Source of the DNA: Caldifarciminota bacterium
GTDB taxonomy: Bacteria > Hydrothermota > Hydrothermia > B15-G9
DNA length: 53,038 nucleotides
NCBI GenBank assembly: GCA_015489175.1
Contig: WGAI01000009.1
Location: forward strand, 1-53,038
Direction of reading: 5' to 3'
Shown: positions 30,583 through 44,489 of the stretch, in pieces
Position numbering within the stretch: the first letter of the stretch is position 1
Layout of the letters: each line of letters opens with the position of its first letter
Translations under genes and position numbers: made by a program
Notes under the pieces: generated by a model
Databases searched by the model: none
Told to the model about the DNA's origin: nothing
What the model saw: the letters and a program-made list of their open reading frames with translations, nothing else

Positions 30583-31905
30583 TCAGAGGACGCCGGCCTC
30601 TTTGAGATGTTCCAGAAGATACCTGTAATCTTCCGTCAGCTCGCCGTGATACACTATGATTGCCCGTTTGACAACGGGTGAGAGCTTAAGTTCGTCGAAT
30701 TTCACGGAATAGTCGGCCGTAGCTATTTCCGGAACATAAGGCTTTAATGCGTGGCTGAACGCCTCTGAGGAATCCCTTGGCAACTCGCAGGGCAGGTTAT
30801 CGACTGCAAGAATCAGCGGGCCCTTGCCGTCGAAGCTGTCAACAGGCTCTCCCTTCTCAACATCATAAACATACACCGGATTGCCGGGGTCGGTGGCTTT
30901 AACTGTAACCTCTATGGCCCCCTCGATATCACAGCTTATGTCGCCAATCACAAGAAGTTTTGGAAGCGATTCACCGCCATACATCTCCTTCGCTTTCTCT
31001 TTTGTTAAAAGTCTCGGATACCGCTCATCCCAGTATATGGCGTTGACGAGAACAGTCATGAACGGCAGGTATTTCTCGAAGACGGAACGATATTTCTCAG
31101 GATGCTGGTAGTAATCCATGAGCTCAAACCTTGCGTTGGCGTCGATCGGCTCGACAATGTGTTCCTCTTTGAAGATGACCTTATAAATCCGGCGGTTTGA
31201 TGACTCAATTTTGTCGATGTTCAGGAGTTCATCGGGGGTGATTTCCTTTACGGGGAACAGATCAAGGATTTCTTGAGCTCCACGCGAGACATTGCCGTAG
31301 CCAGCTATTCCTATCACAAGCGGCGTCACGCTCTCAGGAAGCCCCTTCTCCTCCACTTCTTTTCCGATCGCCGAAAGCTCCTCTTTGAGATGTTTTACAT
31401 CGAAATATTTGTAAGCCTGCTGCACCTTTGAAAACGGGGTCTCGATGCCGAGTGCCTGGAGCCTCCTGCCGAGCGCCCACAATGTATCGGTCATGCCAGC
31501 AAGTCCTGCAAACCTGCCGAAGAATACCACCCGTCTGCCCTTTTCGTCGGTCATCTTTTCGTAGTCTATGAGGTTGTCCTTGAGATCCATCAGGCGTTTG
31601 AGCATGGGCATGTTGTGACGCTGACCTTTTATAGTGTGCGAGAAGAACACATAAGTTTTTTCGGGCTCGAAAAACTCCTCGGGCATCTCCTTTACTCCAA
31701 ATATTACAGTAGCTTCGCTCATATCTTCTTTGATCTCAGCGCCCGCCTCTTTGTATTCGTCATCCGTAAAAGCCCTAATGGACGATGGCTGAACGATAAC
31801 CCTTATCCTGTGCTTTTCGATAAGCTCTTTGACATCGTCTGGTGTAATAGCCACCCTGCGTTCCCACTCATTCTTGTCCTCGCGACGGATTCCTATCACT
31901 ACCAT
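30583..31905 (-). CDS. Lysine-ketoglutarate reductase/alanine-dehydrogenase-like protein (AlaDh/PNT N domain)
   Basis: 440 aa. The N-terminal AlaDh/PNT-like domain (IGIRREDKNEWERRVAITP) is typical of saccharopine dehydrogenase (lysine-forming) and LKR proteins. Next come SHTIKGQRHNMPML near 89-102, the GRFAGLAGM region and a Rossmann segment PLVIGIAGYGNVSRGAQEIL. The C-terminal half holds VIGDISCDIEGAIEVT. Likely role is NAD(P)-dependent oxidation in lysine (saccharopine) or related amino-acid metabolism; substrate not certain. AGGAGG Shine-Dalgarno, 14-bp gap from the regulator. Confidence 0.8.
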   Translation of the reverse strand: MVVIGIRREDKNEWERRVAITPDDVKELIEKHRIRVIVQPSSIRAFTDDEYKEAGAEIKEDMSEATVIFGVKEMPEEFFEPEKTYVFFSHTIKGQRHNMPMLKRLMDLKDNLIDYEKMTDEKGRRVVFFGRFAGLAGMTDTLWALGRRLQALGIETPFSKVQQAYKYFDVKHLKEELSAIGKEVEEKGLPESVTPLVIGIAGYGNVSRGAQEILDLFPVKEITPDELLNIDKIESSNRRIYKVIFKEEHIVEPIDANARFELMDYYQHPEKYRSVFEKYLPFMTVLVNAIYWDERYPRLLTKEKAKEMYGGESLPKLLVIGDISCDIEGAIEVTVKATDPGNPVYVYDVEKGEPVDSFDGKGPLILAVDNLPCELPRDSSEAFSHALKPYVPEIATADYSVKFDELKLSPVVKRAIIVYHGELTEDYRYLLEHLKEAGVL

Positions 31906-31919
31906 CAGATTTTCCTCCT

Positions 31920-33458
31920 TTAGCTTAAATCTACGCCTACATCGATGTTTTCTATGAGTTCGAGGGCCTTATCTGCAAGCTCACCCCTCAAAATCTTGCC
32001 ATAAGCTGGCGCTATGACCTCTATTTTCTCAAATTTTTCCTTTATCCTGCCGACACAATCTTTGATGTTGTTCTTGCTCGGCATGTAAATCTTCATGAAT
32101 TTCTCTATACCCTGAAGGTCATTTTCGTCGGCGAACAGTGGATTTTCCTGCTCATTTGCGGACAGCAACCCGCTGAACAAAATTCCGGGTATCAGGACAT
32201 TTCGAGATGGTATTCCGATCGCAAGCGAGCCTCTGAGCGGGCAGTATGGAGTTGGTATGAACCTCAGCAGGAATTCTTCACCTTCTGCGCATCCAAGTTG
32301 AAGGTGAATCGGACGGCCAGAGAAATCGACTGGTTTGAACCTGTCTTTAGGAATATTCATGTGAGCCATCATGCGGATGTTCTCGAATGTCGAGAGGAGG
32401 TAAATCTCGGAGTTAATCTCGAGAAGCTTGTTGATGTTCATGGTCATATCGGGCAGAGGATTGGTGACTACCATAAACTTGAGTTTCGAGAAGTCGTTTT
32501 CCATTATCTCGCCGACCTTTTGCAGAATGACATCGAAGTAGGAAATCGGCCCCGGGTCTACGAGAATAAAGGTCTCATCGCATCTCAACAGGTAAGTGTT
32601 GGGTTGCGAATCTATGCCGCTTTCTCGGCTTGAGACCCAGTAAAGGTCCTTTGTTATCTCCACGGCAGAGACAAGCAGCTCCTCAGGTGGCTCATACTCC
32701 TGAAGCGAAAAACTATCAATATCCTGTAACTCAACGCCCATTGTGGATTCCGCGCTTGCCATTTCTTCGTCGAGTTCACGCATAAGGTCAAGGATAAGTT
32801 GTGTGGTGGAAATGTTCTCTACTGTTGCGACATCGGTTTTGACATCCGGGATGAATTCAAACAGGCCGCCCTGAGACCTGAGCATCTGTTTCAAGGCCTC
32901 CCGTCCGACGAGATCGTTGAGTGTAGCATGGTAGATCTGGCCATTGTCGAAATACACTTCGCCGTTTCCCTCTTTAAGTTTCAGTGTCAGCATGCCTGTC
33001 GAACCGCGGGATTCCAGAAGCTGAAGGACATCAACGATGGAGATCTCGGAAAGCGAGCCGTGAAGCGCATTCATCATAGCTTCTCTGCGTTTAAGGATAT
33101 TGTTGATGCGCATGATCAGCTCTTGTGGATTGAAAGGCTTGCTGATGTAGTCATCGGCACCCAGCCCAAGCCCTTTAAACTTGTTTTCCTGATCCGAAAG
33201 CGCTGTGAGGAAGACAAATGGGACTGTCCTGAGTTTCGGGATGCTCCTTATCTTGGAGAACATCTCAAACCCATCCATACCGGGCATAAGTATATCGGCA
33301 AGAATAAGATCAGGCTCGAAATCCTTGAGTATTTCAAGCGCTTCTTCACCGTTCTGAGCAGTTACCACAAAAAAGCCGTTGTTTTCAAGAAGGTCCTTGA
33401 GTATCTCACTCAGGTTAGTATTATCCTCGACAACCAATATTTTCCTTTGTGCTTCCAT
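31920..33458 (-). CDS. Response regulator: REC + PATAN (DUF4388) + degenerate flavodiiron/ODP metallo-beta-lactamase domain
   Basis: 512 aa. REC domain 1-122 with Asp12, phospho-acceptor Asp55 (LADILMPG), Thr85 and Lys107. PATAN/DUF4388 domain about 133-215 (YFDNGQIYHATLNDLVGREAL). The C-terminal half (about 262-500) follows the ODP/flavodiiron MBL fold (NTYLLRCDETFILVDPGP), but the usual iron ligands are altered: HxExDH reads NPLPDM (333-338), the later His is Cys406 (TPYCP), FSxD is FSGLL (431) and PxHG is PAYG (Tyr486). Only Asp337 remains. Probably a non-metal signalling domain. No kinase adjacent. AGGAGG Shine-Dalgarno. Confidence 0.78.
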   Translation of the reverse strand: MEAQRKILVVEDNTNLSEILKDLLENNGFFVVTAQNGEEALEILKDFEPDLILADILMPGMDGFEMFSKIRSIPKLRTVPFVFLTALSDQENKFKGLGLGADDYISKPFNPQELIMRINNILKRREAMMNALHGSLSEISIVDVLQLLESRGSTGMLTLKLKEGNGEVYFDNGQIYHATLNDLVGREALKQMLRSQGGLFEFIPDVKTDVATVENISTTQLILDLMRELDEEMASAESTMGVELQDIDSFSLQEYEPPEELLVSAVEITKDLYWVSSRESGIDSQPNTYLLRCDETFILVDPGPISYFDVILQKVGEIMENDFSKLKFMVVTNPLPDMTMNINKLLEINSEIYLLSTFENIRMMAHMNIPKDRFKPVDFSGRPIHLQLGCAEGEEFLLRFIPTPYCPLRGSLAIGIPSRNVLIPGILFSGLLSANEQENPLFADENDLQGIEKFMKIYMPSKNNIKDCVGRIKEKFEKIEVIAPAYGKILRGELADKALELIENIDVGVDLS

Positions 33459-33502
33459 AACTCGATGCCTCCTGTAAACGCCTCTCGGCGTAAGTCGATA
33501 TT

Positions 33503-34249
33503 TTAAGCCAAATTCAAAATATGCTTCAAAATAGGAATTTGTTCCAGCTGTTTGTCGGTCAATTTATCCCTATAAATACCAGACGGTTTTGGCAGCGTCG
33601 TGTCTGTTTCTATTATCTCGTCGGGCGTAACGATTAGGTCAACGGGTATGTCATGAGGCTCCCACGGGAAATCCTGCTCCAGTATCTGAATAGGGTGCAC
33701 CGTGGTCAGCACAGGCGTATCTTCGCCGATAAGCCCATAGTGGCGCGCTATGGCGAATTCGAGGTCTGAGTAGCCACCTCCTTTGCCGATGCGCTGCCCC
33801 TTTCGATTTACTGCAACTGAACCGGCTATTACAAGATCAACCTTTTTCATTTCCCATGGCCCGACTGTTTCACCGTAAGCAAATGCTCCCTTTATTGTTG
33901 CCGCCTTCGAAAACAGATATTCAGGGATGGCATAAGGATCGAGTTTTACGAAACATTTGAGTGACCTAAGTCTTGGAACGGCCATATATATTACCTTTCC
34001 CCGTCTCAATGCCAGATACCTTAGCCTCTTTTGTGGCGAATCCGGATTCGCTTTAATCACTCTCGCCTCCCTGAAGACATCCGTGTCGGCGGCGAGCTCA
34101 GCGGCATTTTCGGCTCCCACGAAGTTGGGGATTCTGCCCCATGCGCCTGGGAACCTATCAACCCCCGCCTGCTGTAAGTTTTTCCATACCCGCTCTCTAA
34201 TTTGCTGCTTCTCAGGATGAGGTTTATGCCCAAAATCGGTGTAGCTCAT
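33503..34249 (-). CDS. 5-formyltetrahydrofolate cyclo-ligase-like protein (MTHFS family)
   Basis: 248 aa. N-terminal KQQIRERVWKNL and a later VAVNRKGQRIGKGGGYSDLEFA, the ATP-binding GKGGGYxD motif of 5-FCL-type enzymes, followed by VHPIQIL. The family ATP-dependently converts 5-formyl-THF to methenyl-THF. Sequence is longer than canonical FCL and resembles the MTHFSD branch, so substrate is not certain. First gene of the minus-strand run down to lolD. Divergent from the nucleoside kinase gene. Confidence 0.8.
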   Translation of the reverse strand: MSYTDFGHKPHPEKQQIRERVWKNLQQAGVDRFPGAWGRIPNFVGAENAAELAADTDVFREARVIKANPDSPQKRLRYLALRRGKVIYMAVPRLRSLKCFVKLDPYAIPEYLFSKAATIKGAFAYGETVGPWEMKKVDLVIAGSVAVNRKGQRIGKGGGYSDLEFAIARHYGLIGEDTPVLTTVHPIQILEQDFPWEPHDIPVDLIVTPDEIIETDTTLPKPSGIYRDKLTDKQLEQIPILKHILNLA

Positions 34250-43769: not shown

Positions 43770-44489
43770 ATGCTTGATGGCATCAAACTTAAAGGCATAC
43801 CACTGAAAAATATGTTACAGGTTTTGGGTGATTCCAGAAATAGAGTATGGTTAAAGGTCATTTTGAAAGATAAAAGGGAGGGGAATATCTGGCTCGATAA
43901 AGGCAAGATATTGCATGCTGTTTTAAATGATCTATTTGGAGTTGAAGCATTGAGGGAGATGCTGAGTTCTGAATATTCAGAGGTCATTATTTTCAAGGAG
44001 TTTAGCGGCAGTGTTGTTAATAGCATCAATGAGCCGGTTGAAGATGTTCTTAAAGATATCGTTAAGGAGTTAGTCAGGAAAGAAAGGGAAGAACTGATTA
44101 AACAAGGAAGGGATAAAATGATCGAACAAATCCTTAAAAAGCTAAAGACGGATATACCTCATTGTCTTGGTGTGGGTGTTTTCCACACCACGGAGGGGCT
44201 CATGATCGGAGCCGTCACTGATATCCCCAATTATGACCACGATGTCGCCGGTGCCGCTTATTCAACGATGATGAGCTCAATAAAGAAAGCACTCTCCATC
44301 AGAGGAGAAGGCATTTATGTGAACATACGGGATGTGCTTGTGGAGACAGATGACAAATATCTGTATGTTCGCACGCTGGGCAACACGGATTACGCAATCG
44401 TTGTTGCAATGTCAAAAGAAGGGAATCTTGGGTATCTGCGAGCGATGTTGAAAAAAGTTGAACCTGATCTTGTGAAGGCGCTTGCTTGA
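43770..44489 (+). CDS. PATAN/DUF4388-roadblock/LC7-like protein
   Basis: 239 aa. N-terminal PATAN domain (about 5-85; IWLDKGKILHAVLNDLFGVEALREML), a highly charged helical linker (about 95-125), then an alpha/beta roadblock/LC7-type domain (about 127-235; GVGVFHTTEGLMIGAVTD, YAIVVAMSKEGNLGYLRAML). Such pairs regulate small GTPases or motility and polarity in other bacteria. The PATAN half shares pattern and key Gly/His residues with the REC-PATAN protein at 31920-33458. No GTPase adjacent. Role inferred. Confidence 0.72.
   Translation: MLDGIKLKGIPLKNMLQVLGDSRNRVWLKVILKDKREGNIWLDKGKILHAVLNDLFGVEALREMLSSEYSEVIIFKEFSGSVVNSINEPVEDVLKDIVKELVRKEREELIKQGRDKMIEQILKKLKTDIPHCLGVGVFHTTEGLMIGAVTDIPNYDHDVAGAAYSTMMSSIKKALSIRGEGIYVNIRDVLVETDDKYLYVRTLGNTDYAIVVAMSKEGNLGYLRAMLKKVEPDLVKALA

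Follow-up and report, generated by a model that had tools for sequence, protein, structure and literature searches.

A REC-PATAN response regulator of a WOR-3 bacterium with an ODP domain that appears to have lost its metal ligands

The regulator gene, its neighbours and its domains

The window analysed here, a stretch of 53,038 nucleotides, is a contig of the 2.06-Mb, 96%-complete genome of an uncultured WOR-3 bacterium. A 512-aa response regulator is encoded on its minus strand by an open reading frame running from an ATG at 33458 to a stop at 31920, with coordinates and strand as originally predicted (Table 1). The gene stands in a run of minus-strand genes separated by short gaps, which continues beyond the AlaDH/PNT gene with lolC/E-like and then lolD-like genes; no kinase gene lies next to the regulator in the window. 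A gene of the 5-formyltetrahydrofolate cyclo-ligase family is found, by sequence, directly 5' of the other-genus orthologue as well (L045 931-1719). Its counterpart in the window scores 41 bits, far under the NCBIfam equivalog cut-off of 85, and adjacency to the regulator is seen in two genera despite this sub-equivalog score. For the downstream AlaDH/PNT protein, both the N- and the C-terminal domain were found, with a score far under the alanine dehydrogenase equivalog cut-off; we take it to be, possibly, a saccharopine-dehydrogenase-like enzyme. A second PATAN-like protein is encoded elsewhere in the window (43770-44489, plus strand), with weak matches to DUF4388 and Roadblock/LC7, both slightly under the Pfam cut-offs, and possibly bears on pilus or polarity control.

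Table 1. Positions of the regulator gene, its parts and its immediate neighbours in the window
Feature	Position	Strand	Basis or remark
REC-PATAN-pseudo-ODP response regulator, 512 aa	31920..33458	-	ORF, three Pfam domains, two orthologues
Ribosome-binding site AGGAGG, short distance 5' of the regulator ATG	33468..33473	-	sequence
REC domain, residues 7-118	33105..33440	-	PF00072, E 1.5e-29
PATAN/DUF4388 domain, residues 133-232	32763..33062	-	PF14332, E 3.3e-21
ODP domain (flavodiiron-like MBL fold), Pfam residues 285-487	31998..32606	-	PF19583, E 5.5e-24
Predicted former ligand motif 1, residues 333-338 (NPLPDM)	32445..32462	-	HQDPDV in ODP, HAEQDH in flavodiiron; D337 alone kept
Predicted former ligand 5, Pro407 for His (PLRGS vs HFRGA)	32238..32240	-	profile and MAFFT alignments
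Predicted former ligand Asp, now Ile426 (PGI vs TGD)	32181..32183	-	profile and MAFFT alignments
Predicted former last ligand, Tyr486 for His (APAYG vs APQHG)	32001..32003	-	profile and MAFFT alignments
Upstream gene, 5-formyltetrahydrofolate cyclo-ligase family	33503..34249	-	PF01812, E 2.5e-28
Downstream gene, AlaDH/PNT-domain protein	30583..31905	-	own AGGAGG; 14 bases past the regulator stop

The original prediction placed REC and PATAN domains before an ODP/flavodiiron-like MBL fold, and the three Pfam matches, all well over their cut-offs, agree with this. The REC domain keeps all of its characteristic residues (E11/D12, the phosphoacceptor D55, T85 and K107); since it is complete, control by phosphorylation is likely. 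The adjoining PATAN/DUF4388 domain scores 76 bits against a cut-off of 25, and the ODP domain 85.6 bits against a gathering cut-off of 27.2. The ODP fold spans about residues 262-512, wider than the Pfam limits, and no C-terminal flavodoxin domain was detected by Pfam in the 512 aa.

An HMM comparison with ODP families and a structure prediction had been proposed as checks, and both support the assignment. Besides the PF19583 match, a phmmer search of the PDB with residues 256-512 returned ODPs only (6qrq, E 4.8e-17; 6qnm, E 9.4e-5). The AlphaFold2 model of the domain (pLDDT 87, pTM 0.89) gave 6qwo and 6qrq as top Foldseek matches (TM 0.78-0.82 on the query), the closest being the T. maritima ODP 6qwo at 0.82, with flavodiiron proteins and the T. 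denticola ODP ranked below. The full-length model reached a pLDDT of 84 but a pTM of 0.52, so that the placement of the domains relative to one another is not fixed by it.

Ligand columns of the ODP domain

Ligand equivalence was taken from a HMMER profile alignment to 6qrq and from a MAFFT alignment of 22 ODP and flavodiiron domains, and the two agree. In the window protein, the ligand columns are occupied by N333, L335, D337, M338, P407, I426, and Y486. All intact ODPs checked have H D D V/L/I H D H in these columns, and all flavodiiron proteins checked have H E D H H D H; in one partial ODP row (L051), the last two columns were unreadable. Thermodesulfobacteriota contributed over 30 further relatives, all with an intact ODP or flavodiiron ligand set. 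Neither His nor Cys is present in any ligand column of the window protein in either alignment. Because intact ODPs already carry Val, Leu, or Ile where M338 stands, a fair count is that five of six ODP ligands have been lost.

The residues quoted in the original prediction are all found at the numbers given. Of the equivalences that it drew by eye, those for N333, L335, D337, M338, and Y486 hold; Cys406 and Leu431 were rejected as ligand equivalents, being 1 and 5 residues off in the 6qrq profile and MAFFT alignments, and give way to Pro407 and Ile426. The correction leaves unchanged the claim that Asp337 is the sole ligand left, and no other His or Asp residue was placed at a ligand position by the sequence and profile alignments. 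As judged from these alignments, the metal site of the domain has been lost, with Asp337 as its only remaining ligand.

Orthologues, selection and phylogeny

The full REC-PATAN-ODP fusion is present in 3 of the 147 WOR-3 genomes, all of one family and spread over two genera. A same-genus orthologue (L043, genome G018) is 96-97% identical to the window protein, and an orthologue from the other genus (G017) is 45% identical overall and 37% identical across the ODP domain. The fusion had no match in a fourth genome of the family, G019, which is 85% complete. A scan of genome contigs with peptide patterns returned one orthologue (L009, on the same contig as L043) and three REC-only matches. No such fusion, and no ODP lacking its ligands, was seen among the best-scoring matches examined from 395 Thermodesulfobacteriota genomes, and the viral contigs searched contained no relatives.

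In the G017 orthologue, the ligand columns read Q L D M P F Y. Up to 5 residues from an old ligand column, this protein and the window protein share 55% identity, compared with 33% elsewhere (Fisher p = 0.0036), with the stretches TxPLPDM, STFEN, PLRGS, and IAPAYGK conserved. Between the window and same-genus proteins, dN/dS across the ODP domain is about 0.03-0.04, close to that of the neighbouring enzyme gene. Sharing of the pattern with the other genus, together with purifying selection, argues that it reflects neither chance nor decay. On sequence grounds, we regard the domain with high confidence as a conserved metal-free pseudo-ODP.

The phylogeny was examined with a tree of 57 rows, rooted on flavodiiron proteins, in which the pseudo-ODP domain clusters with ODPs and apart from flavodiiron proteins. 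The three pseudo-ODPs form one clade (support 100/99) within a 24-row ODP subclade (100/98), whose remaining 21 rows are intact. The tree indicates that the ligand loss is derived, was a single event in an ancestor of this WOR-3 family, and took place among the ODPs rather than among the flavodiiron proteins; it has been maintained since. The original description of the domain as a pseudo-oxygen sensor stands as far as ancestry is concerned, the clade being nested among intact ODPs; that the intact members of the subclade sense O2 is itself extrapolated from the T. denticola ODP.

ODP domains are also joined to GGDEF domains. In another WOR-3 family, three such proteins (L046:2556-4256 in G025, L047:4759-6459 in G022, and L048:4529-6223 in G024) have ligand columns reading S/T N E H N P T, so that their ligands are lost too. 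These proteins form a lineage separate from the pseudo-ODPs, and the tree therefore needs two losses; the lineage sits on a long branch whose exact place is unsure, and its loss is apparently independent of that in the window protein. ODP-GGDEF proteins of Thermodesulfobacteriota (L089, L090, L093, L094) likewise join an ODP to a signalling output domain, but unlike the window protein they keep the full set H D D I H D H.

An intact ODP paralogue is present in all three genomes that encode a pseudo-ODP. That of the window genome (L003:1336-2487; contig C20 of G000, about 7.0-8.2 kb) has the columns H D D L H D H and lies on a different contig from the pseudo-ODP gene, with no shared operon; its ODP domain is extended by some 110 residues without a Pfam match. 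Intact ODPs also occur where there is no pseudo-ODP, for example in G019 and in genomes of other families. One intact ODP (L050:5118-6719, G045) has a 534-aa frame with a long C-terminal part lacking a Pfam match.

Gene neighbourhoods elsewhere bear on the signalling context. In G017, the end of the cyclo-ligase gene runs into the fusion gene, after which come a stand-alone REC gene and a histidine kinase gene, an arrangement that supports a two-component role; a full-length orthologue of this kinase was not found in the window genome, where similarity was confined to the kinase core. In the Thermodesulfobacteriota genome G201 (L124:5203-7137), a REC-PATAN gene begins at most 4 bases after an intact ODP of the same subclade; this pair corresponds to an unfused form of the domain set of the window protein. 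In G265, also from Thermodesulfobacteriota, an intact ODP lies between the end of a histidine kinase and two REC genes. Given these two cases, in about a dozen neighbourhoods, it is plausible, though not proven, that ODP and REC-PATAN proteins are functionally linked. A Treponema-like chemotaxis partner was sought in the window genome and no CheW match was found; a gene cluster resembling pilB-pilT-pilC-pilS-pilR is present.

Possible roles and relation to known systems

Because relatives in two genera keep the ligand loss, it is probable that the domain is not decaying but has taken on a new use, as a metal-free part in docking or control. Our working interpretation, which we hold with moderate confidence, is that the protein is a REC-PATAN regulator in which the diiron site was lost once and the metal-free ODP module serves in docking or dimerisation. 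A histidine kinase would phosphorylate D55, phosphorylation would alter the surfaces of the PATAN and ODP domains, and the ODP part would offer a dimerisation or docking face in place of O2 binding; the likeliest partners would be the intact ODP paralogue of the genome or a PATAN target such as PilB. In cyanobacteria, the PATAN domains of regulators bind PilB, the motor of type IV pili (PMC10519157, PMC7690835), and the flavodiiron proteins Flv1 and Flv2 lack the canonical ligands, with Flv2 pairing with the intact Flv4 (PMC4390876). We favour a docking or dimerisation module on account of these two precedents, the complete REC domain, and the presence of a pil cluster without CheW.

The main rival, a possibility that we rate lower, is that the old active site is now a ligand pocket, in which metal-free binding or sensing of a small molecule tunes the output of REC-PATAN. 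Between genera, conservation within the domain is highest in the loops of the old active site, where the polar residues D337, E359, R362, R409, and Y486 are fixed, and a similarly dead ODP occupies the N-terminal sensor position of the GGDEF proteins in the other WOR-3 family. Loop conservation is, however, also expected from fold constraints or from a docking face, and two of the polar residues, R362 and D337, do not vary in intact ODPs either.

A specific form of the docking explanation would have the pseudo-ODP and an intact ODP form a mixed dimer, in which the REC-PATAN protein would be controlled by the O2 state of its intact partner. In keeping with such a dimer, all three genomes have an intact paralogue, a REC-PATAN gene is found elsewhere directly after an intact ODP, and the Flv2/Flv4 pair offers a precedent. 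Set against these, the two genes are not operonic, intact ODPs occur without a pseudo-ODP, and co-occurrence within one family is weak evidence; we consider the mixed dimer rather unlikely. More speculative again is the extension that a REC-PATAN regulator controlled by phosphorylation pairs, through its dead ODP subunit, with the live ODP of the cell, and that oxygen or iron status reaches the motor of the type IV pilus in this way, with no part played by chemoreceptors or CheA. If true, a split between dead and live diiron subunits of the Flv2/Flv4 kind would have been transferred into two-component signalling.

It is improbable that metal is still bound through D337 and other, non-equivalent residues. 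D337 remains, Y486, E359, and D378 are conceivable ligands, and the window protein has Cys293, Cys390, Cys406, Cys468, His366, and His385; these His and Cys residues are not conserved in the other-genus orthologue (C406 is Leu and H366 is Lys), no His or Cys is common to the pseudo-ODP orthologues, and the ligand columns are devoid of both. That the ODP part is a decaying remnant, as the loss of most catalytic residues and the single-family distribution might suggest, was rejected as very improbable given a dN/dS as low as that of the neighbouring enzyme gene, a full-length frame in two genera with the old site selectively conserved, and a high-confidence predicted fold, provided that these orthologues are correctly assigned.

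In this protein, an oxygen-sensor domain appears to have lost its cofactor site and yet to have remained subject to selection as part of a two-component regulator; a second loss of this kind is seen in the phylum, in a GGDEF fusion. The protein offers a clean system for asking what a sensor fold does after losing its sensing chemistry. It also calls for caution, in that Pfam ODP matches in WOR-3 signalling proteins need a check of their ligands before annotation as oxygen sensors. No useful account of ODP domains in response regulators, or of dead MBL sensors, was found in the literature searched, which covered few subscription journals; a known fold, a known type of regulator, and a known dead-diiron precedent are here found in a combination without description in that literature.

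Among known systems, the ODPs of T. maritima (6qrq, 6qwo) and T. denticola (6qnm, 6r9n) share the Pfam family, fold, and signalling context of the window domain, and the end of the domain is similar; they differ in the five of six metal ligands that the window domain lacks and in working with an MCP/CheA system, whereas the window domain sits behind REC-PATAN. Flavodiiron proteins, including the cyanobacterial Flv1 and Flv2, have the same MBL core, and Flv1 and Flv2 are likewise without canonical ligands; the window protein has no flavodoxin domain and is a signalling fusion, not an enzyme. The Synechocystis PATAN regulators PixG, PixE, LsiR, and TaxP2 combine REC and PATAN as the window protein does, with PATAN at the N terminus in PixG, PilG, and TaxP2 (PMC10519157); in the window protein, by comparison, there is no chemotaxis-type operon, the REC domain comes first, and an ODP domain has been added.
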